A stretch of DNA of 21,275 nucleotides. Origin: a virus. The translations under genes were made by a program, and so were the position numbers. Each line of letters opens with the position of its first letter. Within the stretch, counting starts at the first letter, position 1. The DNA is taken from IMG/VR virus record IMGVR_UViG_3300021335_001447, positions 1 to 21,275 of that record; one strand, written 5' to 3'. The notes below the pieces were generated by a model. That model worked only from the letters and a program-made list of their open reading frames with translations. It was not told where the DNA came from and searched no databases. Shown here piece by piece: positions 732-17,187 of this stretch.

Positions 732-1132
732 TGTGGCATTACGAAGACAAGCCATTTGAACCTACCGAAGAATTTCTTAAACAGTATCATGGATTCGTCT
801 ATGAGGTCACTGAGCTGGACACCGGTAAAAAATATATCGGAAAGAAAGGGTTCTGGTCTACTCGCAGACTTCCCCCACTCAAGGGCAAAACTCGTAAACG
901 TCTCACAATCAAAGAGTCAGACTGGAAAGACTACTATGGGTCGTCAGAAGAAGTTAAACGCCTTGTAGAGGACGGTGGCGCCTTCAGGCGGGACATTCTG
1001 CGTCTATGTAAGACAAAGGGAGAGTGTTCGTACTACGAGGCGAAGGCACAGTTCGACAAGGATGTGTTGTTTGATGATACATATTATAATGAATTTATTG
1101 GTTGTAAAATCCATTCGAAGCATCTAAAATGA
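731..1132 (+). CDS. GIY-YIG endonuclease-like protein, SegE type
   Basis: A 133-residue protein whose N-terminal half carries a divergent GIY-YIG nuclease core: GFVYEVTELDTGKKYIGKK at about residues 20-38, where FVY and YIG stand for the two signature strands. A conserved Trp-Lys-x-Tyr-Tyr-Gly-Ser segment (DWKDYYGSS) follows at about 65-73, and a Tyr-Glu-Ala-Lys patch lies near the C-terminus. This order matches the SegE-like GIY-YIG domain of T4-type phages. I start it at ATG 731, which overlaps the upstream TGA, rather than at the in-frame GTG 722 inside the previous gene. It could be a free-standing homing endonuclease or a domesticated nuclease; no intron or split gene is visible nearby. 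Family confidence is moderate to good, role confidence low. Confidence 0.72.
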   Translation: MWHYEDKPFEPTEEFLKQYHGFVYEVTELDTGKKYIGKKGFWSTRRLPPLKGKTRKRLTIKESDWKDYYGSSEEVKRLVEDGGAFRRDILRLCKTKGECSYYEAKAQFDKDVLFDDTYYNEFIGCKIHSKHLK

Positions 1133-1138
1133 TAAATA
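1131..1138 (+). promoter_or_regulatory. T4-type late promoter-like box GATAAATA
   Basis: GATAAATA differs from the T4 late-promoter core TATAAATA at the first base only and fits the looser NATAAATA form described for T4-like cyanophages. It overlaps the end of the GIY-YIG gene. Transcription would start near 1144, about 24 bases before the GTG of the capsid-targeted P-loop protein. It lies in one of the few gaps between genes in the window, which favours a real site. Confidence 0.55.
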
Positions 1139-1156
1139 ACTCTATACATTCAATTT

Positions 1157-1160
1157 GAGG
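1157..1160 (+). promoter_or_regulatory. Ribosome binding site supporting GTG start at 1168
   Basis: GAGG, seven bases before the GTG at 1168. It decides the start of the P-loop protein, which has no nearby ATG in frame. Confidence 0.6.
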
Positions 1161-1167
1161 TCTGACA

Positions 1168-1911
1168 GTGTTACGGTTTGAACAATTTCTAAACGAGGGT
1201 GTCGATGATCCCGCAATCTTCAAGGCAGTATTCCTTGCAGGTGGGCCTGGGTCTGGTAAGTCTTTCATCGTAGGTAGAACTGGTCTCCCAGCATTGGGTT
1301 ATCGAGTAATCAACTCTGACGACGCATTTGAAGCAGGTCTTAGAAAAGCAAAAATGGATATGACCCCCGATAACATCTTCTCTCCGCAGGGTCAAGAGAT
1401 TCGCGGCCGTGCCAAAAGAATTACCAGCCTAAAAAATCTTCGTTCTATGTGGGGTCGTCTTGGTCTTGTCATCGACGGTACTGGTAAGGACACCGACAAA
1501 GTCGCATCGAAGGTGAATTCACTCAAAGCATTAGGTTATGATTGTGCAATGATTTTTGTCAACACTGATCTTGATACCGCATTGAAACGTAATCGTATGA
1601 GAGCACGTACACTCCCCGACGCAGAAGTAGAAAAGTATTGGAAAGAAGTTCAACGCAACATCGGTAAGTTCCAACAGATGTTCGGTAAGGAAAACTTCAT
1701 TGTCGCTGATAACAGTGAAGGCAAAGACTATAAGCAAGAAACTCTTCGTGCATACAAAGACATTCGTAAGTTTACTGAGAAACCACCAAAGTCGGAAAAG
1801 GCAAAGAAGTGGATCGAAAAGATGCGTGACATCAAAAAGTCTGGTGGCCAGACTGATAAACGTAAGAGTAAGATGAAGAGATTTTCAAAGTACAGACCAA
1901 AGTACAAATAA
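1168..1911 (+). CDS. P-loop kinase / zeta-toxin-like NTPase with capsid-targeting N-terminus
   Basis: A 247-residue P-loop protein. Walker A is GGPGSGKS at residues 25-32, followed by an INSDD segment like the acidic motif of zeta toxins and polynucleotide-kinase-type folds, a VIDGTGKD strand, and an Arg/Leu-rich lid (RMRARTLPDAEV). The C-terminus is a Lys/Arg-rich tail ending KYRPKYK. The first eleven residues, MLRFEQFLNEG, match the capsid-targeting peptide of T4 internal head proteins (IPII and IPIII start MKTYQEFIAEA), with a prohead-protease type L-x-E cleavage point after Glu10. I infer that it is packed in the head, cut after E10 and injected. A late promoter-like GATAAATA lies 30 bases upstream. 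The GTG start has a GAGG site. It may phosphorylate a host nucleotide, RNA or metabolite; the substrate is unknown. Confidence 0.78.
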   Translation: MLRFEQFLNEGVDDPAIFKAVFLAGGPGSGKSFIVGRTGLPALGYRVINSDDAFEAGLRKAKMDMTPDNIFSPQGQEIRGRAKRITSLKNLRSMWGRLGLVIDGTGKDTDKVASKVNSLKALGYDCAMIFVNTDLDTALKRNRMRARTLPDAEVEKYWKEVQRNIGKFQQMFGKENFIVADNSEGKDYKQETLRAYKDIRKFTEKPPKSEKAKKWIEKMRDIKKSGGQTDKRKSKMKRFSKYRPKYK

Positions 1912-1914
1912 TAC

Positions 1915-1943
1915 TTGACACTGTGACTAGATAACTGTATAAT
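1915..1943 (+). promoter_or_regulatory. Consensus sigma70 promoter
   Basis: TTGACA at 1915-1920, a 17-base spacer, and TATAAT at 1938-1943: all twelve consensus bases with the ideal spacing. It lies in the 61-base gap before the 145-residue gene, and the start would fall near 1950. This is what a host-polymerase-driven early phage promoter looks like. The transcript would run through two small genes to the terminator at 2624-2648. Confidence 0.93.
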
Positions 1944-4486: not shown

Positions 4487-5341
4487 ATGAACAATTGGTT
4501 CCGCGAACCAATCTCAGGGCAACCTATTTACGTTAATGAAGATTATGAAATAGATTGGCGCGGGACGATTGGAGTTGGTGATATCTTATATGGTTTAAAT
4601 GCTGCACACCAGTTGTCGCATTTGTTTAAGCATCCTATTAAGATGAACGTATTCTGGACTCATGGTGAGGACTACAACTACCACTATGAAGATCCAGAGA
4701 CGATCATTGAACGCAGTGATTATCTCCACCGCCACTATCATCGATGTGACGATGTAACTGTAAATCACATCTTTAATTCCACCGACAAAGACATCGAAAA
4801 GAAACGATGGCGAGGATTTGGTCACATTCGCGATCCTCAAAGAGTCTTGTCTTTTCATCACTGGATGTTTCGAAAAGAATTGTGGCATGAAGGAATACCC
4901 AAAAAGGTTGTATTCTGGAGACCCACTTTCAATCGTGAGATACCTGCCGGTGGCAAACAATGGAAGATGACTTTTTCTGTCAAGGAATGGGAACGCATCA
5001 TTCACTTCCTTGAACTCAAGGGTTACAATCTAGTAGAACTTGGTTATCGAACGCCTGTCAACGAAGCGTTGTATCATATTCGTACTGCAAGTTTCTGTGT
5101 GTTCTATGACGGAATGTGGCAATACCTTGCAAGAAATCTTTGCAAACCAGTGATCACATTAGGCGGCAGTTCAATATGCATGACTCACAGTCCACAGGGA
5201 GTCTGGTTCAAGAAACCACATGATCCAAACAATGACTTCTGGGACTACCTATATAAATTACCAACAAACGAAGATCACCTGAGAAGTCGGGCAGATCGTT
5301 ACAAAAACAAATTATGGGAATCGTTAAATGTTTCAGATTGA
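4487..5341 (+). CDS. Putative GT-B glycosyltransferase, GT9-like
   Basis: A 284-residue protein, first of the glycan block. Residues 26-40 (GTIGVGDILYGLNAA) look like the glycine-rich first loop of ADP-heptose-type GT9 transferases. A strand VVFWRPTF (141-148) would open the C-terminal domain, and residues 198-230 (IRTASFCVFYDG, then LARNLCKPVITLGGSS) match the region that binds the sugar nucleotide in GT-B enzymes. No single catalytic residue can be assigned by eye. The 5' part is Tyr/His-rich. It overlaps the next gene by 14 bases. GT-B is inferred from fold-like patterns only; other two-Rossmann proteins are possible. Confidence 0.5.
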   Translation: MNNWFREPISGQPIYVNEDYEIDWRGTIGVGDILYGLNAAHQLSHLFKHPIKMNVFWTHGEDYNYHYEDPETIIERSDYLHRHYHRCDDVTVNHIFNSTDKDIEKKRWRGFGHIRDPQRVLSFHHWMFRKELWHEGIPKKVVFWRPTFNREIPAGGKQWKMTFSVKEWERIIHFLELKGYNLVELGYRTPVNEALYHIRTASFCVFYDGMWQYLARNLCKPVITLGGSSICMTHSPQGVWFKKPHDPNNDFWDYLYKLPTNEDHLRSRADRYKNKLWESLNVSD

Positions 5342-6296
5342 CCGTGCAGTGATTGAAGTCAATGGAGGTTGCAACTATTCGTGTTCTATGTGTCCGCAGG
5401 ATATGCGTACCGGTGGACGGCACAAAGGTTTTCTCAAGAAGATGTCGTTGCAAGAGTTCGAAGATAACGTTGCGGACTGTGCACAACATGGATTGAGAGT
5501 CGTTAACCTTGACGGATCTGGAGAGGCAACACTGAATCGTGACTTGCCCAAGTACATTGAGATTTGTAAAAAGTATAACGCAAAGGCATTTATCTTTTCG
5601 AACGGTCACAACATGGAAGGTCAGTTCATGATGGACTGTGTCGATGCGGGTCTGGACTTCTATCGATTCTCTTGGATAGGATCAAACCCTGAGAAGTACA
5701 ATGAGTGGATGTACAATCGTATCGGGGGTGACTACGGTTCTACATGGGACAAAGTGCGTGCCATGAAAGAGTACGTCGATCTTGTTGAGTCAGACTGTGT
5801 CGTCGCCACATATCATCTCATGACCGAAACTGATCCAGAGAAACGAGAGAAAGAATTACAAGCATATCAGAACATTGTCAACACACTAGGTGTCAAGACA
5901 GAGATATGGACGATGCACAATTGGTCGGGTGTATACAAACCCGTCGAAGATAGAAAAGGAGCAAAGAAAACCTGTGGAAGACCTTTCAGTCCAGATCTTG
6001 TTATTCGCGCTGGTGGTCTTGATGGCAAGCGTGGTGCTGTTCATCCCTGTTGTCAAGTACTTGGAAGAGATGAGGAAGGAATCCTCGGCTACACTAGCGA
6101 AAACACCGTGGAAGAAATCTGGTTCGGTGAAGAATACGAGAAACTCCGACAACAACACAGAGATGGAGATTATCCGTCATTCTGCCGCAATTGTGACTTC
6201 CTTGTCGATGATCCAGAGGTTCTAGTCTGGACGAATCACGAACGTGATCTACACAAGATGCACGGCACAGAATTCGATCTGGAAGACTACAGATGA
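5328..6296 (+). CDS. Radical SAM protein with SPASM-type C-terminus (322 aa)
   Basis: A 322-residue radical SAM enzyme. The [4Fe-4S] motif C-x3-C-x2-C is at Cys15, Cys19 and Cys22 (NGGCNYSCSMCPQD). The usual GE-type strand appears as LDGSGEATLN (about 61-70). The C-terminal part carries Cys216, the pair Cys241-Cys242 (HPCC), and Cys286/Cys289 (FCRNC), the layout of a SPASM/twitch domain that binds extra iron-sulfur clusters. Such enzymes modify peptides or carry out dehydrogenation, epimerisation or C-C chemistry. Inside a glycan block, a sugar or aminosugar substrate is plausible but unproved; no precursor peptide is evident. It overlaps both neighbours. Confidence 0.88.
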   Translation: MFQIDRAVIEVNGGCNYSCSMCPQDMRTGGRHKGFLKKMSLQEFEDNVADCAQHGLRVVNLDGSGEATLNRDLPKYIEICKKYNAKAFIFSNGHNMEGQFMMDCVDAGLDFYRFSWIGSNPEKYNEWMYNRIGGDYGSTWDKVRAMKEYVDLVESDCVVATYHLMTETDPEKREKELQAYQNIVNTLGVKTEIWTMHNWSGVYKPVEDRKGAKKTCGRPFSPDLVIRAGGLDGKRGAVHPCCQVLGRDEEGILGYTSENTVEEIWFGEEYEKLRQQHRDGDYPSFCRNCDFLVDDPEVLVWTNHERDLHKMHGTEFDLEDYR

Positions 6297-6847
6297 AACC
6301 CGAAGTATGGATGATACAGATTCCGGACAATCCGATATCAATGTATTATCGTGGTCGTGTCGAAGAGTCTTGGAAAGACTATAATCTCAAATTTTTCAAT
6401 GCTATCACTCCAGAAAATAATACCAAGGATTACTTGAACTTTGGAAAGAAACGTGATAAGATAGAGTTTACACCGACTGAAAAAGCAGTTTGGTATAGTC
6501 ACGTTGAGTTATGGGCAAAGGCAAGAACCAAACCTATTCTAATTATAGAACATGACGCAATGTTATATGAACCAATACCAGATGGCATATGGGAATCTGA
6601 CATGGCATGTATTGGACACTGTTACAGAGACGGTGAAAGAAAGACTTTGGCAGGTCTATCTTATTATCTTACTCCGAAGGTTGCACGATATATGGTCGCG
6701 GGTGTTAAACAAACAAAGAACATTACGTGGAACTCTGACGCCACCATATATAGAACGTGCAAACAAAGAGGCATCTTTAGTCGCGATTTGGTAGGACAAA
6801 TCAAAAACGACACTATCGGAACAACAATTGAGCATCTATATCAATGA
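6293..6847 (+). CDS. GT25-type glycosyltransferase (LPS-biosynthesis like), copy 1
   Basis: A 184-residue short relative of the GT25 / LgtB-Lex2 family, which adds sugars such as galactose to lipooligosaccharide. Visible marks are an N-terminal strand with NAITPEN (36-42), YSHVELW at 68-74, and ILIIEHDA at 82-89. The EHD (86-88) stands where classical members have EDD or a DxD-like metal site. It is the first of four such genes in the window (others at 15081, 15767 and 17184) and the shortest. ATGA-type overlaps on both sides. Donor and acceptor are unknown. Confidence 0.75.
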   Translation: MKPEVWMIQIPDNPISMYYRGRVEESWKDYNLKFFNAITPENNTKDYLNFGKKRDKIEFTPTEKAVWYSHVELWAKARTKPILIIEHDAMLYEPIPDGIWESDMACIGHCYRDGERKTLAGLSYYLTPKVARYMVAGVKQTKNITWNSDATIYRTCKQRGIFSRDLVGQIKNDTIGTTIEHLYQ

Positions 6848-7635
6848 AAAGATTAATTTATCAGGTTTGTCTTGGTGAAGCAAAGGACTCCAAACTGTAT
6901 AAACATTGTATAAACAGTGTTACGGAGTATTGCAAAAGACATAACATCAACCACGTAGTTCAACGACAACCTCTTCTGCGGGTCAATCCCGATCCTTTCA
7001 TGTCGAATCGCAGTGATGCATCGTGGAGAAAACATGGCGGGTTTCTCCCTATCTATGAGAAAGAAAATGCATTCGACCTTTTAGATGACTACGATCAGAT
7101 TGCCATAATCGATGCAGATATCTTTATTCGTGAGGACGCACCGAATATCTTCGAAGACTTTGGTGATACTCATGCATTTGGTGCAGTGTGTGAACGTGAG
7201 ATGCCTATTACCGAAGCATACAAAGGTAAGATTACCAATTACTCTATGATGCAGTATGGTCAACTACAGTCCAACCGTACAGACTTCAAACCCAACAATC
7301 TTGGATTCGAATTCTTTAACATGGGATTGATACTTCTCAATAGTAAAAGATTCAAGGAGTATTTAAGAGGACAGACTGCTGAACAGTTCATTCGACGTGG
7401 GGAATTCATGGATTTTGTAAATGGGAAAGGCCCGTGGAAATGGAGTACTGATCAGACTCTCTTAAATTTCTTTTTGAAAAAGTATAAGGTTCCCACTAAA
7501 CACCTTGATTGGAAATGGAACGGATTGTATACTGCCAACACAAAAATAGAAGAGTGTCATTTTGTGCATTTCTTCTTAAAAGATTTATTACCTTCTCGTG
7601 GTGAAAACGTCGAGGAGTTGATGAAACTAATATGA
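6844..7635 (+). CDS. GT8-like glycosyltransferase (263 aa)
   Basis: A 263-residue GT-A-fold transferase. QIAIIDADIFI at residues 85-95 holds the metal-binding DxD (Asp90-Ala-Asp92). FFNMGLILLNSKRF follows mid-protein, like the F-N-x-G-x-x-x-x-N segment of GT8 enzymes. TDQTLLN comes next, and HFVHFF near the C-terminus supplies the third metal-binding His position. These four blocks in this order are typical of GT8 family retaining transferases using UDP-sugars. No membrane segment is seen, so it works in the host cytoplasm. It overlaps the neighbours by four bases each side. Confidence 0.78.
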   Translation: MKRLIYQVCLGEAKDSKLYKHCINSVTEYCKRHNINHVVQRQPLLRVNPDPFMSNRSDASWRKHGGFLPIYEKENAFDLLDDYDQIAIIDADIFIREDAPNIFEDFGDTHAFGAVCEREMPITEAYKGKITNYSMMQYGQLQSNRTDFKPNNLGFEFFNMGLILLNSKRFKEYLRGQTAEQFIRRGEFMDFVNGKGPWKWSTDQTLLNFFLKKYKVPTKHLDWKWNGLYTANTKIEECHFVHFFLKDLLPSRGENVEELMKLI

Positions 7636-8738
7636 ATTACGAAGAAAAAACACAAAGGTATGCTACGTGGGGAGACAAGTATCTTCAACACACCGATGTC
7701 TTGTATTCCATACAGTATGAGGACACGTTTAAACCTATAAACGTTCAATTGTGTTTGTGTGAAGTTTGTGATAGCGACTGTCCGTTCTGTTCTGTTGCTG
7801 CACGACCACTCAAGAGTTATATCCCTTGGGAAAAACTCAAGAAGATGTTGGTTGACTTTCGTGAGTTGGGTGCAAAGGCGTTAGAGATTACGGGTGGAGG
7901 TAATCCGTTATTGTACCGCGATCGTGAAGCAAAAAAAGACATCAACGATGTGATCATGTTTGCCTCTGCATTGGGTTACGACATCGGCATCATCACTAAC
8001 ACAGAGAAACTTGAACGACACCTTTTGCCTATAGTGTATCCTCGCATTAACTGGATTCGTGTGTCTCTGATTAAACTGGATGAGGGTAAGACTCCGCAAG
8101 ATTACGACTTTGGATCATTCCCCCGCGAGAGACTCGCTCTTAGTTACATCATCTACGATGGCACCGGTGATGCACCGGACGAACTGTCTCGCACTAATAA
8201 AATCTATGAAGGTACAACACCCGAATCGATTGAGAAGATTGCGGAGTTAATCAAACTCAACCCTGAACTCAAGTTCTGTCGTATTGGTGGCAATGCATTG
8301 GTAGAAAACTATCAGATTGAAGTTCAGAAGAGGTGGCGCGAAACAATTCAACGTCTCGACGCATTCGACAAGTTTTTTATAAAGGACGTATGGGACAACT
8401 GCAAACCTTATGACGAAGGGTGTTATGTTGGGTTGACACGTCCATACATTGCGCCACATCCAGATGGTGGTGATTATCAGGTCTATGTCTGCACAAGTCA
8501 TGTACTGGAGAAAAGAACCTATGACATGGATTTTTCTCTTGGAAGTATTGACAATGTGAAAAAGATATGGGATAATGCTAATCTAAACTATGCCAAAACT
8601 GGCGTACCTTATGAGATTCGTGGTGCGGGAGATGGTGGTTGGAAAGATGCCTGTCCAAGTTGTTTCTATTTCAACAACAACAAACTCCTACACACGGTCG
8701 CCCAACAAATGGATATTGATGACCGGAACTTTGCATGA
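7632..8738 (+). CDS. Radical SAM protein with extra C-terminal cysteines (368 aa)
   Basis: A second, unrelated-looking radical SAM protein of 368 residues. The cluster motif is Cys46, Cys50 and Cys53 (CEVCDSDCPFC; Cys41 and Cys43 lie just before). ITGGGNPLLY (about 85-94) is the GGE-type SAM-binding strand, here with GGG. Further Cys in CYVG, YVCTSH and the final CPSC (Cys341, Cys344), together with SLGSIDNVKKIWD, match a SPASM-like auxiliary domain. The first 35 residues form a separate charged lead segment. Function is unknown; a sugar or amino-sugar substrate would fit the block. A strong promoter-like element lies inside its 3' part (8548-8576). Confidence 0.86.
   Translation: MNYEEKTQRYATWGDKYLQHTDVLYSIQYEDTFKPINVQLCLCEVCDSDCPFCSVAARPLKSYIPWEKLKKMLVDFRELGAKALEITGGGNPLLYRDREAKKDINDVIMFASALGYDIGIITNTEKLERHLLPIVYPRINWIRVSLIKLDEGKTPQDYDFGSFPRERLALSYIIYDGTGDAPDELSRTNKIYEGTTPESIEKIAELIKLNPELKFCRIGGNALVENYQIEVQKRWRETIQRLDAFDKFFIKDVWDNCKPYDEGCYVGLTRPYIAPHPDGGDYQVYVCTSHVLEKRTYDMDFSLGSIDNVKKIWDNANLNYAKTGVPYEIRGAGDGGWKDACPSCFYFNNNKLLHTVAQQMDIDDRNFA
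8548..8576 (+). promoter_or_regulatory. Possible internal sigma70-like promoter
   Basis: TTGACA at 8548-8553, a 17-base spacer, then GATAAT at 8571-8576: eleven of twelve consensus bases. It lies within the radical SAM gene, about 160 bases before the methyltransferase gene at 8735. The -10 is identical to that of the promoter at 21152. Because it falls in coding sequence (SIDNVKKIWDNA) it may be chance. Confidence 0.4.
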
Positions 8739-9310
8739 CAGAATATGATGAGAGTTACTACACGACAGGTAATTACGAAGACTACTTAGACCGCAGACCG
8801 GAGTTCGATGAACTCGCTTCAGAGTTGTACAGTCTGTTAACAAGTCTAGACCACATGGATGGCCCTATTCTCGACTTTGGATGTGCGGTCGGTATGCTCC
8901 TTGATGCATTCCGTGATCTAGGTATCGATGGTGAGGGTGTGGAGATCTCTGAGTGGGCCCGACAAGAGGCACAAGACAGGGGTCATACCGTACATGAAGA
9001 GTTACCAGATAGTCACTACTACCCTGTCACGTTCGCACTTGATGTACTGGAACACATGGAAGAGGATCAACTTGAAGAGTTTCTCTACAGTCTAAACACC
9101 AAGGTTCTGGTATTTCGTGTTCCCACTGTGGTCGATGGTGATGACTACCATATTGAACAGGCACGACTTGATCCAACCCACAAGATTCGTTGGACAGAAG
9201 AAGAGTGGAATTACGAGATTGAACAACACTGTTATTTTGTTTTACCGTTGATGTTGCCTAATATCTACTGTGCAGACGGAGCATATTGCGGTCTCGCATT
9301 TAAGTTATGA
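8735..9310 (+). CDS. Class I SAM-dependent methyltransferase (191 aa)
   Basis: A 191-residue small methyltransferase. Motif I is ILDFGCAVG (residues 45-53), followed by the acidic end of strand 2 at GVEIS (Glu70), and a motif-IV-like ALDVLEHM (101-108) typical of the Methyltransf_23/11 group. Its N-terminus (MTEYDESYYTTGNYEDYLDR) resembles the Y-Y lead of sugar- or surface-glycan-linked methyltransferases. The C-terminal part is Asp/Glu/His-rich. It sits between a radical SAM gene and an acyltransferase, with ATGA overlaps, so methylation of a sugar precursor or glycan is a fair guess. Acceptor atom unknown. Confidence 0.82.
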   Translation: MTEYDESYYTTGNYEDYLDRRPEFDELASELYSLLTSLDHMDGPILDFGCAVGMLLDAFRDLGIDGEGVEISEWARQEAQDRGHTVHEELPDSHYYPVTFALDVLEHMEEDQLEEFLYSLNTKVLVFRVPTVVDGDDYHIEQARLDPTHKIRWTEEEWNYEIEQHCYFVLPLMLPNIYCADGAYCGLAFKL

Positions 9311-10107
9311 TACATCCTAGTGCAATTATAGAATGTGAGGTTTTTGAGTTAGGGGAAAACTGTTACATCGGCCCCAACTGCAAGATCACCTGTAAAGAAT
9401 TTAGGGCAGGAGATTATCTCTGGATGCCCGCAGACGTGGAGATAGGACGTGGAGGTTGCAATGGCCCTGACAGTATTGTGCACATTGGCAATTCTGTGGG
9501 CATCTTTGAAGGGACTGTCATTAATCCTTCAAGTAGGGTCACGATTGGTGATTGTGTTGGTATCGGTGCTGATTGTCTGTTATGGACTCATGGCGCTTGG
9601 TGTAATCCTCTCGATGGTTTTCCCTTCAGTTTTGCCCCTGTTACCATAGGGAGTAACGTCTGGTTACCCGCAAGATCCATCATGTTGCCTGGCACCAATG
9701 TCGGTGACAACTGTGTGATTGGTACAGGATCAGTTATCACCAAAGATATTCCGTCTGGATCACTCGCAATGGGTTCTCCATGTAAGGTAGTCAAAGAAAA
9801 CGAATATCCCAAGAATCTAACCATCGAGGAAAAGAAAAGAATACTTCAGGACATTGCCAACCGATGGAAAGAACAATTGCCCCACAAAGGGGTGTCTGCA
9901 AATGTTTGGGTTGGTGAGGGCACTGTTGTGGTGAATGGTAAGACAACGTTTGACTGCTTGAACTACGAGATCAGTGGAGATCAAAACGAACTTACCGAAG
10001 ATCTACGAGACTTTCTACGTCGACACGGCATACGCATATATAACGGACAACCATTTAAATCATTGAAACCAAATTATGAATCTAGTATTGAGTCCCCACC
10101 CCGATGA
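9307..10107 (+). CDS. Left-handed beta-helix acyl/acetyltransferase (266 aa)
   Basis: A 266-residue hexapeptide-repeat transferase. Imperfect repeats begin at residue 1 and run to about 165. WTHGAW (93-98) puts His95 in the position of the catalytic His of LacA/WbbJ-type acetyltransferases, and VTIGSNVWLPARSIMLPG and VGDNCVIGTGSVIT form the classic closing coils before GSPCKVV. Acetyl-CoA-dependent O- or N-acetylation of a sugar is the likely reaction. About 85 residues after the helix (SANVWVGEGTVVVNGKTTFD onward) form an extra domain I cannot assign, possibly acceptor binding. The 3' end overlaps the PIG-L gene by 32 bases, one of the longest overlaps in the window. Confidence 0.83.
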   Translation: MIHPSAIIECEVFELGENCYIGPNCKITCKEFRAGDYLWMPADVEIGRGGCNGPDSIVHIGNSVGIFEGTVINPSSRVTIGDCVGIGADCLLWTHGAWCNPLDGFPFSFAPVTIGSNVWLPARSIMLPGTNVGDNCVIGTGSVITKDIPSGSLAMGSPCKVVKENEYPKNLTIEEKKRILQDIANRWKEQLPHKGVSANVWVGEGTVVVNGKTTFDCLNYEISGDQNELTEDLRDFLRRHGIRIYNGQPFKSLKPNYESSIESPPR

Positions 10108-10672
10108 TGCAGAATACTCTGTCTCAGGCACAATTCTAAAGAGTAACGATTACTGGAAGGTGGTTACTCTGTCGTCTGGTGGAGATAACGACGATACAAC
10201 TAGTCATTCGCGATTAGACGAAAGTGAAGAGTTCTGGTCTGACATGGGCAATGTCTGCCACATTGGCATGAACTCTAAAACAATTGATCAATACCGTGAC
10301 TATGAGTTGGTCGCAATCATTGACGATCTATTGGACAATGTTGACACAATCTATGTGCCACCACTTGAAGACAATCATTTCGAACATCGTCGAATCAGTG
10401 AAGCGGCACGTGCCGCAACACGGGGTAAACCAATAACCCTCATTGAATACTACACCCCGTCTACACGGTCGACATGGGTGCCTAATCTATTTGTCGATAT
10501 CGATGAGTACATGTATGAGAAGGATTATAACCTTCATTTGTACTTCAGGTCACAGAACGATCGGTTCTATTTTCGTGAAGAGAATATCGAGATCTTTCAT
10601 GAAGATTACTTCTGCCGTTTGCGTGGACTAGATAAGGTCGAGAAATTTAGAGTGGAGTATCAATTCAAGTGA
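10076..10672 (+). CDS. PIG-L family deacetylase (198 aa)
   Basis: A 198-residue LmbE/PIG-L zinc deacetylase that removes acetyl groups from GlcNAc-type substrates. The zinc site is plain: SPHPDDAE at residues 6-13 (His8, Asp11) and the second ligand in NHFEHRR at 100-106 (His101/His104). A TLSSGG strand lies between them. It is a little shorter than most PIG-L proteins. ATG 10076 lies 32 bases inside the acyltransferase gene and puts the first motif at the usual distance from the N-terminus. Deacetylase and acyltransferase side by side would allow an N-acetyl sugar to be opened and given a different acyl group; that is inference. Confidence 0.9.
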   Translation: MNLVLSPHPDDAEYSVSGTILKSNDYWKVVTLSSGGDNDDTTSHSRLDESEEFWSDMGNVCHIGMNSKTIDQYRDYELVAIIDDLLDNVDTIYVPPLEDNHFEHRRISEAARAATRGKPITLIEYYTPSTRSTWVPNLFVDIDEYMYEKDYNLHLYFRSQNDRFYFREENIEIFHEDYFCRLRGLDKVEKFRVEYQFK

Positions 10673-11115
10673 AAATCATTTGTCATCGTGGCAATCTAAA
10701 CGGCCCGAATCCCATGACCGAAAACCATCCGATGCAGATCGATAAGTGCATCGAGAAGGGGTATGACGTAGAGATAGATTTGTGGGCTGGTGATGGTCTG
10801 TGGTTAGGACACGACGGCCCGGAGTATCCTATAACCAAGGAGTGGTTGACCTTTCGCCAACGCAATTTGTGGGTTCATTGTAAAAACATCGAGGCGGTGA
10901 TGTTTCTACGTGAACGTGCACCACACATACACTGGTTCTGGCATCAAGAGGATGACTACACGTTGACATCACATGGTTGGGTTTGGGCATACCCAAACAA
11001 ACCGGTACCCGAATCATCGTCTCGTTCGGTGTGTGTTATGCCTGAGATATATAACTCTGACGCGAGTAACTTCCAAGCAGTATGTACAGATTATCCAGAG
11101 AGATATAATGATTAA
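10669..11115 (+). CDS. Short GDPD-like phosphodiesterase (148 aa)
   Basis: A 148-residue protein with the metal and catalytic residues of glycerophosphodiester phosphodiesterases: ICHRGN (His6-Arg7), TENHP (Glu18-Asn19), VEIDLW (Glu35, Asp37), and LGHD (His48). The end, CTDYPERY, matches the closing TDyP segment of the family. GDPD barrels are usually about 230-250 residues, so 80-100 residues from the middle and end of the barrel are missing, though both ends of the motif order are kept. It starts at GTG 10669, overlapping the previous stop. It could trim glycerol phosphate from a glycan or lipid, or act on a cyclic or sugar phosphodiester. Nearby HAD-nucleotidyltransferase suggests a phosphorylated precursor. 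Confidence 0.75.
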   Translation: MKIICHRGNLNGPNPMTENHPMQIDKCIEKGYDVEIDLWAGDGLWLGHDGPEYPITKEWLTFRQRNLWVHCKNIEAVMFLRERAPHIHWFWHQEDDYTLTSHGWVWAYPNKPVPESSSRSVCVMPEIYNSDASNFQAVCTDYPERYND

Positions 11116-12454
11116 ACTCATTCTATTTGATCTTGATGGGGTTCTGGTCGACGCGAAAGATATTCATTATCAAGCACTCAACCGTGCGCTGGGCAAACAC
11201 TTTGCAATAACACCAGAACAACATCGAAATCTGTATGATGGTCGTAAAACTCGTGAGAAACTACAGATGTTGACCGCAGACAAGGGTCTTCCCGTAGAAC
11301 TACACGATGAGATCTTTGATAAGAAACAATCCATCACCGTACAAATGATGCACGAACTGCCTCTCAACACAAACGCATTGGAGTTATTTGAGGAACTAGA
11401 GAATCAGGGGTACATGATCGGAGTTTGTTCGAACAGTATACGACGTACTGTTTTAACTGCACTGGCAAAATCTGGACTCATTGAATACTGTTCTGTTATT
11501 CTTTCTAACGAAGATGTCAAAAACTCCAAACCACATCCAGAGATTTACTGGAAGGCAATGTCAATGATGGGATGTCTACCAGACGAAACCATCATCATCG
11601 AAGACTCACCCCCCGGCCTACTCGCTGCAGAACGTTCACGAGCATCCTATATACGAGTGCAGAGTCCAAGTGAAGTGACTAAAGAAACGATCATGCCTAA
11701 ACTGGAGACAACAAAAATAATGAACAAGTGGAAAGACGACAAACTCAATGTATTAATTCCGATGGCAGGTGCGGGATCACGATTCGCACAGGCAGGATAC
11801 ACATTCCCCAAACCGTTGATCGATGTAAACGGTAAACCCATGATTCAGGTTGTGGTAGAAAACATAGGTCTTGATGCCAACTTTATCTTTGTGGTACAAA
11901 AGGAACATCGTGAACGTTTCAAACTAGACAACATGTTACCTCTCATTGCACCCAATTGCAGGATCGTAGAAGTTGATGGAATAACCGAAGGTGCAGCTTG
12001 TACTGCGCTTCTCGCAAAAGAATACATCGATAACGACGCACCATTGTTCTTTGCAAACTCCGATCAGTATGTCGAGTGGGAACCTGTGCAGTTCATGTAT
12101 GATATGCAAGAGACACAGGCGGATGGTGGTATCGTTACATTTAAGGCGACACATCCCAAGTGGTCATTTGCAAAGATTGATGAGAACGGATTGGTGACCG
12201 AAGTCGCAGAGAAGAATCCTATCAGTGACAATGCAACTGTGGGATATTACTACTGGAAGAAAGGCAGTGACTTTGTTAAGTATGCAGAACAGATGATTGA
12301 TCGAGATATTCGAGTCAATGGGGAGTTCTATGTGTGTCCCGTGTTTAATCAGGCAATCGAAGACTGTAAAGAGATTCGAGTGCATGAAGCGTCTGCGATG
12401 TGGGGTCTAGGAACACCCGAAGATCTAGAATACTATATCAAGGAAAGAAAATGA
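11108..12454 (+). CDS. Fusion of HAD phosphatase and sugar-1-phosphate nucleotidyltransferase-like domain (448 aa)
   Basis: A 448-residue two-domain protein. Residues 1-200 are a HAD hydrolase: FDLDGVLVD with nucleophile Asp8 and Asp10, CSNS (107-110), Lys141 in NSKPHPEIY, and IIEDSPPG (163-170). Residues 213-448 are a nucleotidyltransferase: LNVLIPMAGAGSRF (213-226), FPKPLIDVNGKP (233-244), and FFANSDQ with Asp319 as likely metal ligand. The pair could dephosphorylate a bis-phosphorylated intermediate and then activate the remaining monophosphate with NTP, as done separately by GmhB and HldE/HddC in heptose synthesis; which substrate is open. ATG 11108 overlaps the GDPD stop by eight bases. 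The longer frame from 10973 lies over the GDPD gene and is not used. Confidence 0.86.
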   Translation: MIKLILFDLDGVLVDAKDIHYQALNRALGKHFAITPEQHRNLYDGRKTREKLQMLTADKGLPVELHDEIFDKKQSITVQMMHELPLNTNALELFEELENQGYMIGVCSNSIRRTVLTALAKSGLIEYCSVILSNEDVKNSKPHPEIYWKAMSMMGCLPDETIIIEDSPPGLLAAERSRASYIRVQSPSEVTKETIMPKLETTKIMNKWKDDKLNVLIPMAGAGSRFAQAGYTFPKPLIDVNGKPMIQVVVENIGLDANFIFVVQKEHRERFKLDNMLPLIAPNCRIVEVDGITEGAACTALLAKEYIDNDAPLFFANSDQYVEWEPVQFMYDMQETQADGGIVTFKATHPKWSFAKIDENGLVTEVAEKNPISDNATVGYYYWKKGSDFVKYAEQMIDRDIRVNGEFYVCPVFNQAIEDCKEIRVHEASAMWGLGTPEDLEYYIKERK

Positions 12455-13032
12455 TATGTCATTGCACTTATTGCCGTGCAATGGGAAGTCAACCTTGGTT
12501 GTGGAAACTAGGAGATAACTATTGGTTCGAGATTCCCAAGAATGCTTCATATGCAATTAAAACGAAGTATAATCTTCAAAAAAACTATGTTCAGGGTATA
12601 AAACCGGTCTCTTCGTTCGATCCAAATATAGAGAAAGTGTATTACGTATGGAGAGATCCCGTCGAACGATTCTCTTCTCTGTTCGCACATTATTTTGTGA
12701 GAGGAAATACTCGAACACGCCACGCAACTTCATTTCTTCAACGACTAAATTATGATACAAATAAACTGAGTCTTGAAGAGAAGTTAGAAATTTGCATATC
12801 CAATATAGACAAATTTACTAGCAAAGAAGAAAGACATCATTGGTTCCCTCAACACACATTTTTAGATTTTCGATATAACCTACACAAACTGACTATGGAA
12901 AATCTAAATGAGTCCCCGTTTGGGCCCTTAGAGATAGAGAATGCGACTAAACGACGCAATATTGTGTTGCCTGCATTAGAAAAATACGTTGATGAAATAA
13001 AGATGATATATGCAGAAGACTATAACCTATGA
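12451..13032 (+). CDS. Sulfotransferase-family protein (193 aa)
   Basis: A 193-residue relative of Sulfotransfer_2 enzymes, which move sulfate from PAPS to a sugar. WFEIPKNASYAI (residues 25-36) matches the 5'-phosphosulfate loop (PKNAS/PKTGG), and YYVWRDPVERFSSLFAHYF (64-82) is the 3'-phosphate binding motif (RDPxERF). The order and distance of the two are right. The end lacks the longer C-terminal part of larger members. The N-terminus is odd: MICHCTYCRAMG has three Cys in CxCxxC form. If active, it would sulfate the glycan made by the neighbours; PAPS would come from the host, as no PAPS synthase is in the window. Confidence 0.72.
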   Translation: MICHCTYCRAMGSQPWLWKLGDNYWFEIPKNASYAIKTKYNLQKNYVQGIKPVSSFDPNIEKVYYVWRDPVERFSSLFAHYFVRGNTRTRHATSFLQRLNYDTNKLSLEEKLEICISNIDKFTSKEERHHWFPQHTFLDFRYNLHKLTMENLNESPFGPLEIENATKRRNIVLPALEKYVDEIKMIYAEDYNL

Positions 13033-13832
13033 TTAAGATATTCATACTGACATATAAAGCACCCGAAGAACTTAATGCCAACCTCAGTTCTCTTTTCGAA
13101 ACAAATGGTGATTATGAAGTACATATCATTAACAACCATTCTAAAGTGTTTGATGTAAACGAAGAGTTTCGTGACAAGGTTACGGTGCACCATCAAACCA
13201 CACGGTTGAATGACGGAACAGGACACCCCGCAAGGGATTGGAATCAGGCATTGATATTGGGATTCAAAGATTTGATGAACCCCGAATGTGAACAGGTCAT
13301 TCTGTGTCAAGACGATGTGATATGGTATGATAACTGGATCGAGGCTCTTGATAGAATTCATATCAAGTATACATTCTATACGTGTGGATGGGGTGATTGC
13401 TTTATGAGTTTCAAACCCGAAGCGGTAAGGAATATCGGTTTATTTGATGAACGATTCTCGATTGTGGGTTATCAAGACGGTGACTATTTTCTACGTGCAT
13501 TTCTCTACAATAAAGAGAACAGTTCAATCAACGATTCTTGGCATAAACGAGTCTTAAACCCAACCGTTCCTGTTGCAGAGAGGTACACCAATATACCAGC
13601 GTCACGTTCATCTGCCTATCAGAAAACTTTAGGAAAGGCATTATGGAAACATAAGTGGGGTAACCAAGATGAACGATGGACGGGTAAGATCAAAGTCACC
13701 GAACCTTTGTGTGATTCCTATATAACATATCCTTACTTTGAAAAAGACATAAAGACTCTCAGAGAACAAAGATTCATATACGATGAATTTGATGAGAATA
13801 TGAGACCAGAATTAACGGAGTTTCGAAAATGA
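13029..13832 (+). CDS. GT2-like glycosyltransferase (267 aa)
   Basis: A 267-residue GT-A-fold transferase. It opens MIKIFILTYKAPEELNANLSSL, the usual strand-helix of GT2 enzymes, has an INN strand (34-36), and the metal-binding acidic pair in ILCQDDVIWYDNW (Asp95-Asp96). Later come NIGLFDERFSIVGYQDGDYFLRA, the G-x-F-D-E-x-F and E/D-D acceptor-side motifs of the family with Gln-Asp replacing the classical Glu-Asp. The last 70 residues are Lys/Trp-rich with no match that I know. Four-base overlaps with both neighbours. Sugar donor unknown. Confidence 0.83.
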   Translation: MIKIFILTYKAPEELNANLSSLFETNGDYEVHIINNHSKVFDVNEEFRDKVTVHHQTTRLNDGTGHPARDWNQALILGFKDLMNPECEQVILCQDDVIWYDNWIEALDRIHIKYTFYTCGWGDCFMSFKPEAVRNIGLFDERFSIVGYQDGDYFLRAFLYNKENSSINDSWHKRVLNPTVPVAERYTNIPASRSSAYQKTLGKALWKHKWGNQDERWTGKIKVTEPLCDSYITYPYFEKDIKTLREQRFIYDEFDENMRPELTEFRK

Positions 13833-14407
13833 AATTATACAAGTATGAATCTTACCAAGAATACGTCGACGCACAGATTGCTGCAAACGTAAGGAAGATT
13901 AACAATGTATGGGTCAGACCATCGACAATCACGAAGATTAAAGCCGCCGCAGGGGGCAACATTCAGACCATAATGTGTCATGGAACTCGAAACGCGACAG
14001 AACAAAAATACTTTCGTGATGCGTATCCGTTTGCAATGATTGTTGGTACGGAAATATCACACACCGCAGACCAGTTTCCTATGACCGTTCAGTGGGATTT
14101 TCATGAAGAGAAAGAAGGGTGGATTAATCGATTTGATCTAATTTATTCCAACTCATTCGATCATAGTTATGATCCAGACAAATGTTTGACGACATGGGTA
14201 GGTCAACTGGCCTCCGGAGGAAAACTGTTTTTAGAACACGCACTCGCAGAGAGCGACAATCGTTCACGTGTGTCAGATCCGCTTGAAATCTCCATCGAAG
14301 AACTGGTAGAATTACTAGAGTCTAAAGGATTGCGTATCACTACCAGACTACAACAGAACGACTTTAAAAATCATCCGTCCGTAATACTTGTTTGTGAGAA
14401 ACTATGA
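13829..14407 (+). CDS. Divergent class I methyltransferase (192 aa)
   Basis: A 192-residue protein with the order of a Rossmann methyltransferase: motif I written as IMCHGTRNATE (48-58), Glu75 at the end of the next strand in VGTEIS, an acidic WDFHE turn (89-93), then FDLIYSNSFDHSYDP (102-116) and an ASGGKLFLEH strand (128-137) typical of motifs IV-VI. Motif I has C-H-G-T instead of the normal D-x-G-x-G, so SAM binding is likely but unproved; it may be a degenerate or altered site. It lies between two GT2-like genes, which suggests methylation of the growing glycan. Confidence 0.65.
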   Translation: MKLYKYESYQEYVDAQIAANVRKINNVWVRPSTITKIKAAAGGNIQTIMCHGTRNATEQKYFRDAYPFAMIVGTEISHTADQFPMTVQWDFHEEKEGWINRFDLIYSNSFDHSYDPDKCLTTWVGQLASGGKLFLEHALAESDNRSRVSDPLEISIEELVELLESKGLRITTRLQQNDFKNHPSVILVCEKL

Positions 14408-15084
14408 AAGAAGGCGTTACACTTGTTATCACGTCTATGGATAGAATGGACTTGTTGGAAAAGACCGTCGAGTCTTTCTTTCGGAAAAATACGTATCCGA
14501 TTGCCAAGACACTGATTATCGAAGACAGTGGCAAAGAACTGGATTTCTCTAATGTAGAACGACACATTGTTGGTGACTACGAAATCATTCAGAACGAAAC
14601 CAATCTTGGTCAGTTTGCATCACTGGACAAAGTCTATTCGAAAGTCGAGACTGAGTGGATTTTTCACTGTGAAGAAGATTGGGAGTTTATCGACAGTGGA
14701 TTTATCGAAGACTCACTGGAGGTTTTTGAGTCTTATAAAGGCAAGTTGTTTACTGTGTGGGTATGTGCAAGTAAAATACACAAGAACCCAGGCCGAGTCC
14801 TAATAGGCGACCACGAAACAAAAAGTGGTAAGACGTTTCGAATACTGTCGCCTACCGATGCAATGGGAGGATATACCCTAAACCCCGGCTTGCGACGAAC
14901 CGAAGATGTGATGAAACCTCATCCATATAGAGAATTGTCTATGAACGGTCAGAGTAATCGAGAGTGGGTTCTTGCCAGACTTTATATTCAGCAATGGGGT
15001 TATCGTGCCGCATGGATCGTCGATTCTCATTACTGTCAACACCTTGGTTATGGAAGACACATTCCTAGAGATTTGGCATTATGA
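14404..15084 (+). CDS. GT2-like glycosyltransferase (226 aa)
   Basis: A 226-residue GT-A transferase. The N-terminal strand VTLVITSMDRMDLLEKTVESF and LIIEDSG (37-43) match GT2 nucleotide binding, and WIFHCEEDWEF (85-95) gives the acidic metal site with Glu90, Glu91 and Asp92. NETNLGQ (64-70) is the family's N-x-G-x loop. The C-terminal part (GGYTLNPGLRR, later NREWVLARLY) resembles small phage and bacterial GT2 proteins annotated as glycosyltransferases. No transmembrane segment, so it is soluble, unlike many polysaccharide synthases of the family. Overlaps both neighbours by four bases. Confidence 0.78.
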   Translation: MKEGVTLVITSMDRMDLLEKTVESFFRKNTYPIAKTLIIEDSGKELDFSNVERHIVGDYEIIQNETNLGQFASLDKVYSKVETEWIFHCEEDWEFIDSGFIEDSLEVFESYKGKLFTVWVCASKIHKNPGRVLIGDHETKSGKTFRILSPTDAMGGYTLNPGLRRTEDVMKPHPYRELSMNGQSNREWVLARLYIQQWGYRAAWIVDSHYCQHLGYGRHIPRDLAL

Positions 15085-15770
15085 AGGGACAGATTGTTTA
15101 TGTCAAGGGACATAAAGATTCAGAGAAACAGGCACAGTTTTCTCTTGACTCTTTTCTGAAATATGGTTGGGATGTTGAGTTGGTAGAGGGCATTACACCA
15201 GATACCCTTGACGAATCTGAGTTTGATTATCCGAATCAAAAAGAGGGTAGACTAGATTCTTTTCAGAAAGAAAACTCTCCAGCGTACAAAATCAAGAAAA
15301 GTTGTTTATTCAATCACCTTCGATTTTTTCAGCGAGTAATCGAAGAGAACACGCCCATGGCATTTTTAGAACACGACACAGTGTGTCAGTCTGAGTGGAC
15401 ATCTCAAATCTTTGATGAACTTTTGATTTTAAATCTCGACCATGCATTTAAACCACCAACAACGTTTGGTAATAAGCCAGGATTTGCAGGATGGGAACCA
15501 CCATACACCATGACACCGGTCAACGATCTGCCGTCTAATTATCCTTTAAAATATTATAAAAACAATCAGTATAAGGGTTGTAACATGATCGCGGGAACTG
15601 CTGCCTATATAATTTCTCCGAAGGGTGCAAAGAAATTGTTGAATGCGTTGAGTCAAGGATTAGACCAATCTGACTTCTTTATCAACGAAAAGAATGTTCG
15701 GTTGCAGTATCTTTCACCAAGTCCGGTAAGGTTTCAAAAAATTAATTTAAACACGTCGCATAAACTATGA
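15081..15770 (+). CDS. GT25-type glycosyltransferase, copy 2
   Basis: A 229-residue GT25-like protein. VEGITPDT (35-42) sits where the family has its variable sugar-binding loop, SCLFNHLRFFQRV (74-86) stands for the S-H-x-x-L-W helix in altered form, and MAFLEHDTV (93-101) gives the EHD motif. GTAAYIISPKGAKKLL is the conserved A-Y-x-I-x-x-x-x-A segment, present here and in the next gene. It lacks the canonical SHxxLW sequence, so it is the most diverged of the four at its acceptor helix. It probably came from the same duplication series as the copy at 15767. Confidence 0.73.
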   Translation: MKGQIVYVKGHKDSEKQAQFSLDSFLKYGWDVELVEGITPDTLDESEFDYPNQKEGRLDSFQKENSPAYKIKKSCLFNHLRFFQRVIEENTPMAFLEHDTVCQSEWTSQIFDELLILNLDHAFKPPTTFGNKPGFAGWEPPYTMTPVNDLPSNYPLKYYKNNQYKGCNMIAGTAAYIISPKGAKKLLNALSQGLDQSDFFINEKNVRLQYLSPSPVRFQKINLNTSHKL

Positions 15771-16465
15771 AAGCATATATCATCACATTAACCGAAAAGA
15801 AAGAGTCAACTGACGCCACAGAGATTGCAATACAGTCCAGTACTGCTGTCGGAAATAATTTTGGTATCGAAATATTTGACGCAGTGACACCAGAACGTGC
15901 AGATCAAGAGATGGAGTTGTACGGATTGAAATGGAATTGGCCTTGGAAATGGCCGGAAAGGGACATACAATCTGGTCTAATGAAAACGCCCTATCTAACC
16001 GCATACCCTAAGAAAAGAATTGCCTGTTTTCTATCGCATTATCGATTGTGGAAACACTGTGTAGAACGAGATGAAGATCTTCTCATTCTCGAACATGATG
16101 CGTATTTTAAATCGAAAGTACCATTGCAGATTATAGAAGAAAGTAAGTACTCTGTTATTGGACTCAATGACCCTCGCAAGGCAACACGAAAATCTGAAAT
16201 GTATCATGAAGAAGTCCAGAAACATACGGGGCCTATAACACCCTGTCCAAAGATTGATATGGAAGATATTGCACAAGGTCTTGCTGGAAACTCCGCATAC
16301 TACATTAAACCCAAGGGCGCAATGAAACTAATTTCATTAGTTGCTGAGTTTGGTGCATGGCCTAACGATGCGATTATGTGTCGACAGATGATGCCGGGTC
16401 AATTGGGACAACTTCGCAAGTATTGCACCACAGTTCAACATATGGTATCGTCGACGAAGACATGA
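15767..16465 (+). CDS. GT25-type glycosyltransferase, copy 3
   Basis: A 232-residue protein and the most typical GT25 member here: MKAYIITLTEK opening, FDAVTPE (37-43), ACFLSHYRLW (86-95), LLILEHDAYF (105-114), and GNSAYYIKPKGAMKLI further on. WPNDAIM near the C-terminus resembles the P-x-D of the family. The Trp-rich insert WNWPWKWPERD (57-66 and on) is unusual and could line the acceptor site. EHD replaces the more common EDD. Co-translated with both neighbours by four-base overlaps. Confidence 0.82.
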   Translation: MKAYIITLTEKKESTDATEIAIQSSTAVGNNFGIEIFDAVTPERADQEMELYGLKWNWPWKWPERDIQSGLMKTPYLTAYPKKRIACFLSHYRLWKHCVERDEDLLILEHDAYFKSKVPLQIIEESKYSVIGLNDPRKATRKSEMYHEEVQKHTGPITPCPKIDMEDIAQGLAGNSAYYIKPKGAMKLISLVAEFGAWPNDAIMCRQMMPGQLGQLRKYCTTVQHMVSSTKT

Positions 16466-17187
16466 AAATTGCCGTGTGTTCGGGTGGTCAGTTACGTATG
16501 ACTGACGACGTTTTGTTATTGACAGACAATCTATTAAAGGATGCTTTTCCTACTGCTGATTTCTTTTACCCTGTATGGAAAGAAGATTATGAGACTCGAC
16601 ATGTCACAGATTTGTTGAATGGTACAGTAGAGGTTATCGAGGAGTACGATATTCATTATCACCCATACGATGATAATCCAGATGTCAATGATACGTGGGA
16701 TTATCAAAAAAAGATTAAGCATCCCAATCCAGATAGACACCTACACCAGACAAAACAGATACTCAATCACAATCATATGATGAGAAAACATTTGCAAGAT
16801 TACGACGTGATAGTACGCACAAGATACGACTCACTGATCAGTCCCGTTCAGGGATTCACAAAGGGAATAGAACTGGCATTGGAAGGTAGTGTGGTCGCCT
16901 ATCAGGCAGGTGACCCTGATCAATTTCTGCATTATCAAAAACTTCATCATGGGTCGGAATCTAAGATGATATCAGATGGAGGATTGATATTTCACTCTCC
17001 GAAGATTTGGGATTGCGACTTAGTAGATCGACTACATAAAGAAAAGAAACTACTTGCGGCAGAGTTTGGTTGGTATCAAGTGTTAATGAAAAACGCAAAG
17101 AGTTATGTTAGGTTCATTGGTGGTGCACATTTGACACGATGTGTGATTAAGAAATACAGGAAACAAATTGAAGAGATGTTGATATGA
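16462..17187 (+). CDS. Putative glycosyltransferase-like protein with RTRYD motif (241 aa)
   Basis: A 241-residue protein I cannot place in a named family with certainty. It opens MKIAVCSGGQLRMTDD, has HQTKQILNHNHMMR (95-108), then DYDVIVRTRYDSL (113-125), where RTRYD acts like the R-x-R-x-D motif of certain capsule and LPS glycosyltransferase-like proteins. Next come VVAYQAGD and a short ISDGGLIFHSPK strand with the G-G-L pattern of GT-A acceptor loops. Context, flanked by two GT25 genes, favours glycan synthesis. ATG 16462 overlaps the previous stop; the in-frame start at 16378 lies inside that gene. Confidence 0.55.
   Translation: MKIAVCSGGQLRMTDDVLLLTDNLLKDAFPTADFFYPVWKEDYETRHVTDLLNGTVEVIEEYDIHYHPYDDNPDVNDTWDYQKKIKHPNPDRHLHQTKQILNHNHMMRKHLQDYDVIVRTRYDSLISPVQGFTKGIELALEGSVVAYQAGDPDQFLHYQKLHHGSESKMISDGGLIFHSPKIWDCDLVDRLHKEKKLLAAEFGWYQVLMKNAKSYVRFIGGAHLTRCVIKKYRKQIEEMLI

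Follow-up and report, generated by a model that had tools for sequence, protein, structure and literature searches.

A P-loop kinase of a marine T4-like phage fragment with a capsid-targeting-like N-terminus as a likely head cargo

Does the P-loop kinase encoded near one end of a marine virus fragment serve the phage in the cell in which it is made, or is it packed in the head and carried into the next cell with the DNA? The fragment (IMG/VR virus record IMGVR_UViG_3300021335_001447, positions 1 to 21,275; all 21,275 bases were analysed and are called the window here) has a gene content typical of a marine T4-like phage. The kinase gene (1168..1911, + strand), of AAA_33/zeta-toxin-like type, encodes 247 amino acids from a GTG start, with a predicted GAGG ribosome-binding site (1157..1160, +) 7 nt before the start codon. 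A preliminary description proposed that the product is made late, packed in the head through an N-terminal targeting peptide, cut on maturation and injected. Our comparisons support this interpretation of packaging and delivery, and we consider it likely that the kinase is a head cargo, packaged and delivered to the next cell as an active kinase.

The N-terminus of the kinase, MLRFEQFLNEG, fits the capsid-targeting sequence (CTS) of T4. The window protein matches the address of T4-type internal head proteins at positions 4, 7, 8 and 10, and it has the site [LI]-x-E/small residue (here LNE/G, the slash marking the cut). Targeting of T4 IPIII depends on residues 4 and 7, and its processing on residues 8 and 10 (PMC9026906). 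The CTS-like peptide MLRFEQFLNE (1168..1197, +) is thus predicted to be cut by a prohead protease after Glu10, leaving Gly11 as the mature N-terminus. At least 584 relatives of the kinase were found. In a set of 16, the peptide has just four invariant residues, F4, L8, E10 and G11, with Phe, Tyr or His at position 7; its other positions vary, in contrast to the fixed kinase core. The cleavage site [LIVMF]-x-E/G is present in 84 of 84 non-redundant relatives, fusions included, its first residue being Leu in 47, Ile in 19, Val in 8, Met in 7 and Phe in 3, and the half of the peptide with the two aromatic residues, at positions 4 and 7, is kept in most. Both the assignment to the IPII/IPIII type and the protease site proposed in the preliminary description are borne out by these counts, and relatives that had shed the peptide, on which that description would have foundered, were not what the comparison returned. 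Furthermore, the proteins of two loci (L034 and L035) have six extra residues between the targeting half and the cleavage half, which is expected if targeting and cleavage are two independent functions. Taken strictly, the pattern calls for an aromatic residue, two further residues, an aromatic or hydrophobic one, a hydrophobic one, any residue and then Glu, all close to the start; of 5054 internal start codons, 8 (0.16%) are followed by it. A match on a single preselected gene is therefore improbable, although this is by itself not decisive; 5-10% of 34-gene windows would contain one strict match somewhere by chance. As far as sequence comparison can decide, it is the conservation among relatives that is the decisive evidence that the peptide is real.

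If the peptide is an address, it should also be carried by other proteins. This expectation holds in related genomes and not in the window itself, in which none of the other 33 called genes has the strict pattern; HTVC008M likewise has no strict matches, the address of its kinase being shortened. In a 151-kb relative (G003), the strict pattern is found on 7 of 198 genes compared with 0.35-1.0 expected. One is the kinase gene and the other six form a group at 27.5-33 kb; among the seven products are DUF6267, a basic protein and a cytidylyltransferase-like protein. DUF6267 is an unrelated domain with at least 595 relatives, and 38 of its canonical N-termini have Phe at position 4 in 36, Phe, Tyr or His at 7 in 31, Ile or Leu at 8 in 36 and Glu at 10 in all 38. 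These N-termini were picked by hand, so the counts show the pattern and not its frequency; the full list also has shortened and extended versions. The carriers are linked to the kinase by position and by fusion. The order in HTVC008M is DUF6267 (gp127), gp128, kinase (gp129) and nucleotidyltransferase (NTase; gp130), the last two genes being adjacent and overlapping. NTase-kinase fusions were found at four loci (L106, L110, L138 and L121) and kinase-DUF6267 fusions at two (L122 and L130), while a kinase lies nearby in 4 of 73 DUF6267 loci. The largest case is a polyprotein of 1265 residues (L121:3475-7269, +) that joins a transferase, a basic module, DUF5824, the kinase and a further module. 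It contains five internal linkers of the form F-x-x-[FYH]-[LI]-x-[ED] (FEMFLEE, FEAYLNE, FEAFITE, FESYLEE and FESFLED) against 0.13 expected in shuffled sequence, and several of the five lie where modules meet. No such excess is seen in the other fusions, each of which keeps the hydrophobic-x-E/G before the kinase; the linker excess being limited to L121, the polyprotein reading draws on one precursor and on conserved xxE/G sites.

The nearest experimental support for packaging of the kinase is the detection in virions, by mass spectrometry, of its fusion-partner family, together with virion detection of 29 proteins from the cluster in which its Atu_ph07 relative lies. Virions of cyanophage S-SM1 contained the transferase family T4-GC190 (PMC3037559), and related proteins were found in those of S-SCSM1, S-CREM2, S-CBWM1 and S-SZBM1 (PMC9602691, PMC10665884). 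The N-termini of the virion-detected NTases are MKKFSAFLNEA in S-SM1 and MKSFLQFLKEA in S-SCSM1; the S-SCSM1 neighbours gp089, gp282, gp280 and gp279 are likewise labelled virion proteins. A protein with the start MKTFKQFMSES, S-SCSM1 gp030 (L174:44215-44535, +), is encoded between two virion-detected proteins and labelled hypothetical; we regard it as a candidate missed head protein. The S-SCSM1 labels were also tried as a gauge of how well the peptide predicts packaging, and the cases were too few. As for the enzyme that would make the cut, the prohead protease of the preliminary description has gp21-type counterparts in HTVC008M and in the 151-kb relative and an 83-kb one (the records behind L029 and L014), and no protease gene lies in the 21-kb window.

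The upstream region bears on the time of synthesis. A late-promoter-like box, GATAAATA, lies at 1131..1138 (+), where it overlaps the stop codon of segE, the upstream neighbour. The T4 late promoter consensus is TATAAATA, and exactly this sequence stands at the matching place in a second contig (L002), in which the kinase open reading frame (ORF) is 98% identical. As stand-alone evidence the box was rejected, since chance alone would give 0.88 copies on this strand of the window; the late promoter claimed earlier is supported instead by conservation. The sequence [TGA]ATAAATA is found 15-65 nt upstream of the kinase in 21 of 75 relatives (28%), in the form TATAAATA in 18 of the 21, compared with 86 of 1544 other genes (5.6%; Fisher p ~3e-9, the loci not being independent). 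It also occurs as GATAAATA, at -32, upstream of S-SM1_191 and of Syn9 gp185. On the other side of the gene, a perfect sigma-70 (early) promoter of the next gene, TTGACA-17-TATAAT (1915..1943, +; 12 of 12 matches), directly follows the kinase stop. Such a promoter is found just 3' of the kinase in L002, L003, L009, L010, L028 and L029; in L014 it lies about 70 nt downstream. By this layout, the kinase gene looks like a separate late unit between early genes. The stretch GAGGTCTGACAGTG around the ribosome site of the kinase recurs in L003 and L010. Between the late box and the kinase of L009, a small gene with the start MKSFKSYIVEY (7737-8001, +) is present that the close relative L010 lacks; this insertion looks like an exchange of cargo.

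We infer the following pathway. The kinase would be made late, and F4 and F7 of its ten-residue address would bring it into the prohead core. A gp21-type prohead protease would then cut it after Glu10 during maturation; the cut kinase would stay in the head with the DNA, enter the next cell with it, and act there at once, ahead of any phage gene expression. DUF6267, the NMN-adenylyltransferase (NMNAT)-like protein and small basic proteins would be packaged with it as one set, either as single proteins that bear the same address or as parts of polyproteins, and the partner enzymes with the same label are probably delivered alongside the kinase. A broader proposal, which we put forward tentatively and hold at less than even chances, is that marine T4-like phages possess an exchangeable enzyme arsenal (zeta-like kinase, ligase-like DUF6267, NMNAT-like transferase, basic proteins) under one head address. 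Its members would be encoded singly or as polyproteins whose internal address copies serve as protease linkers, a single precursor yielding several injected enzymes, and these would repair RNA or restore nucleotides against defence.

On this interpretation, the system is the T4 internal-protein pathway with an enzyme cargo, not a new kind. T4 IPI, IPII and IPIII have the same ten-residue N-terminal address (aromatic residues at 4 and 7, a hydrophobic residue at 8, Glu at 10, then a small residue), and the late-type promoter-like box, the gp21-type protease genes of relatives and the reuse of the address on unrelated proteins are further resemblances. Nevertheless, there are differences: the proposed cargo here is a P-loop kinase known from sequence and not a small basic protein, and in the L121 polyprotein of relatives the address also forms internal linkers. 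T4 Alt, a packaged ADP-ribosyltransferase (ART), is an enzyme that resides in the head, is injected and acts before gene expression, as is proposed for the kinase; it belongs to another enzyme class and has another propeptide. The cyanophage virion NMNAT/cytidylyltransferase (T4-GC190) has the address peptide and is fused to or located beside the kinase in relatives, but it has another fold and has been detected in virions, whereas the evidence for the kinase comes from its sequence. Polyvalent proteins (survey of Iyer et al. 2017, PMC5512222) combine several enzymes in one polypeptide that is presumed to enter the cell along with the DNA. The products of L106, L121, L122 and L138 resemble them in having at least two disparate domains, while the window protein has a single domain; as further differences, the kinase module here follows a prohead-protease-type site and L121 has CTS-like linkers. 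A term search of that survey returned neither 'zeta toxin' nor 'cyanophage', and a kinase described as CTS cargo was not found in the literature searched, most subscription journals being outside its scope.

Several observations weigh against packaging and delivery as proposed. The window, being a fragment, has neither head genes nor a protease gene, and the kinase gene is surrounded by genes of DNA metabolism (nrd, phoH, replication). The address is shortened in the kinases of HTVC008M (MIPFILKEG) and Melnitz (MKTFAELQEG), and E10 and G11, which are retained inside fusions, could be kept for the fold. A late-type box was not found in 54 of the 75 kinase relatives. Polynucleotide kinases have an Asp-x-x-Arg catalytic motif after the P-loop; NSDDAFE of the window kinase has Phe/Glu for Arg, and no Arg is found there in 16 relatives. 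S-SCSM1 has two canonical MK[ST]F proteins, only one of which is labelled a virion protein, and for the virion-detected NMNAT the authors of the S-SCSM1 study allowed for carry-over (PMC9602691).

What the delivered kinase would do depends on its fold and active site. In Pfam, the window protein passes the curated cut-off for AAA_33 (6e-10) and for Zeta_toxin (5e-7); for Zeta_toxin (PF06414) the score is 29.8 bits against a gathering cut-off of 22.3, the match spans residues 96-186 and no single stretch passes alone. The Walker A motif GGPGSGKS (residues 25-32; 1240..1263, +) has GGPGSGK invariant in 12 diverse relatives, with Ser or Thr last. Asp51 of the NSD motif (1318..1320, +), also invariant in the 12, is the candidate catalytic base by analogy with the superfamily. 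The VIDGTGKD motif (residues 101-108; 1468..1491, +), with D103, T105 and G106 invariant, belongs to the zeta-toxin-like half, and the invariant arginines R141, R145 and R147 (1588..1608, +) presumably form the lid. The AlphaFold2 (AF2) model is a P-loop kinase with a predicted local distance difference test (pLDDT) score of 81. Its best Foldseek matches are Clostridium thermocellum (Cth) Pnkp (2.7e-6), zeta toxin and adenylate kinases, and for the group of zeta toxin, Cth Pnkp and PSTK the Foldseek values run from 2.7e-6 to 2.1e-5; by Z score the best are PSTK (14), Cth Pnkp (13.8) and guanylate kinases, with T4 Pnk at 11.8. The resemblance to zeta toxins or polynucleotide kinases suggested in the preliminary description is therefore confirmed at the level of the fold. 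However, identity to the structural matches is about 21% or less, the substrate residues are only partly shared, and the window protein has none of the antitoxin, ligase and phosphatase domain partners; Z values of 12-14 lie so close together that the fold does not reveal the substrate. DUF6267 has the invariant motifs KWDG, EG-V and K-V, and its model gives weak alignments to RNA ligases (that of Naegleria, Z 7.4; T4 Rnl2, 6.6-6.7; T4 Rnl1, 6.4), while Foldseek gave no significant match and a PDB sequence search nothing useful. The DUF6267 protein at L179:2501-3718 (+) has the look of a nucleic-acid ligase with a helical insertion, and by its model DUF6267 is probably a nucleic-acid-ligase-like protein. 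The HTVC008M NTase has weak matches to NadR/NMNAT families (E 0.001-0.002, superfamily level) and no PDB sequence match at E 0.01. Owing to the DUF6267 motifs and the weak RNA-ligase alignment, RNA-end repair is the leading guess for the substrate, and the NMNAT-like partner makes NAD or nucleotide restoration the second. Our best guess is that the kinase acts on RNA ends or a nucleotide, with partner enzymes, early, blunting host defence.

The first of these guesses is a version of delivery itself, in which the kinase heals 5'-OH ends and DUF6267 seals them, so that tRNAs would be mended upon entry after cleavage by anticodon nucleases or toxins of the host. The kinase-DUF6267 fusions, the ligase-like motifs and alignments of DUF6267 and the matches of the kinase model to Cth Pnkp and PSTK all fit. 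Nevertheless, Z values below 8 are weak for DUF6267, the kinase lacks both the Asp-x-x-Arg motif and a phosphatase domain, and few DUF6267 loci have a kinase nearby; we regard the repair kit as possible, though clearly less probable than delivery as such. For the second, the kinase and the NMNAT-like protein would act as the two halves of NadR, which is a nucleotidyltransferase fused to a P-loop kinase (PMC9503650), and rebuild NAD+ against an NAD-depleting defence. The NTase-kinase fusions, the overlapping HTVC008M genes, the family matches of the NTase and the NMNAT-like proteins of cyanophage virions speak for it; however, the NTase resembles NMNAT at superfamily level only, the kinase matches AAA_33/zeta and not a NadR kinase family, and it is fused to other partners too, which leaves this proposal doubtful. 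A third possibility is a zeta-type toxin delivered to poison the host by phosphorylating UDP-N-acetylglucosamine or another nucleotide sugar. Pfam places the window, Atu_ph07, S13 and RB43 proteins above the Zeta_toxin cut-off, the VIDGTGKD motif is present and zeta toxin structures are among the top fold matches. Yet the superfamily is broad and the substrate residues are only partly shared, no antitoxin gene was noticed beside the kinase in a search that was not exhaustive, and there is no obvious benefit in poisoning a host required for growth; we judge this improbable.

The remaining two explanations dispense with delivery or with its purpose. The kinase could simply serve phage metabolism in the cytoplasm as a nucleotide or polynucleotide kinase, with the peptide as the first helix of the fold and no address. 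Its location among nrd, phoH and replication genes, the AF2 helix at residues 4-11 and the adenylate and guanylate kinases among the fold matches agree with this. On the other hand, the helix is predicted with low confidence (pLDDT 51), the same constrained peptide is found on unrelated folds and on virion-detected NTases, the residues besides 4, 7, 8, 10 and 11 drift while the core is fixed, a six-residue insertion is tolerated within the peptide and the promoter is of late type, all of which makes a purely cytoplasmic role slightly less probable still. That the kinase is packaged merely as a structural or core component, its catalysis unused in the new host, recalls the effect of T4 IPIII on head assembly (PMC9026906) but is very unlikely, as no part of the kinase is more conserved than its catalytic motifs and phage C48C1, whose DUF6267 is the most similar among named phages (84% identical), has no kinase, which is thus dispensable for the head.

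Kinases of more distant branches agree with this picture. In Agrobacterium phage Atu_ph07, gp053 has the kinase domain behind an ART-like region, recognized by eye, and starts with MKWNDLNEA; it is one of some ten or more arrayed paralogs whose N-termini read M[RK]W..L.E. The array (L040:6567-16590, gp062 to gp053), in a region with many virion-detected proteins, consists of tandem paralogs of about 250 residues together with the larger gp054 and gp053, and YRGM and STS-like motifs give it an ART-like appearance by eye. An ART domain as such was rejected, there being no Pfam match. Coding sequences 31-76 of Atu_ph07, among which that of gp053 lies, account for 29 virion-detected proteins (PMC6102473), of which gp053 may be one. 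A further zeta-like branch was found in 206 phage records, including RB43, RB16 and Klebsiella, Cronobacter and Aeromonas phages. Its N-termini include MKSFKDFVSLDE/A, MNFKEFCQLDE/A, MKKFSEFIKLEE/K and similar ones, with MKSFKDF..LDE/A as the start in RB43-type phages. Upstream of the distant kinases in RB43, P-KP2 and S13 stands AATAAATA or CATAAATA, the former in RB43 and P-KP2, and hoc genes lie near the kinase in RB43, P-KP2 and the Aeromonas phages. RB43 ORF241c (L169:2495-3328, +), which starts MKSFKDFVSLDE/ALITF, combines a zeta-toxin-like kinase and a CTS-like N-terminus with a location near hoc genes, and phages of this branch can be grown on laboratory hosts.

Elsewhere in the window, the genes include PhoH, DUF6433, a SegE-type GIY-YIG protein, a PD-(D/E)XK exonuclease and a bilin reductase. 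At 19890-21084 (+), a heme-oxygenase-like ORF, identified by eye, is followed by the ferredoxin-dependent bilin reductase (Pfam 6e-12), a pair of phycobilin genes of cyanophage-like kind. The region 4487-19298 (+) holds a long series of glycosyltransferase-, radical-SAM-, sugar-nucleotidyltransferase- and methyltransferase-like genes, by eye a probable surface-glycan cassette. PADLOC gave no defence-system match for the window kinase; for the Atu_ph07 relative its one match, to VakA, is weak. The 23 genome-collection matches to the kinase are mostly contigs of metagenome-assembled genomes and give no evidence of a cellular, bacterial kinase family.

What is new lies in the breadth of the families, in the label shared by unrelated enzymes and in the polyprotein form. 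The T4 capsid-targeting system would thereby be extended to abundant marine phages. NMNAT-like enzymes recur in cyanophage virions; carry-over is one explanation, and the common address suggests how they could get there and lets their mature N-termini be predicted exactly. The RB43 protein is brought out as one that can be tested in E. coli. Furthermore, the address may serve as a sequence handle for spotting injected enzymes among the hypothetical proteins of these phages.
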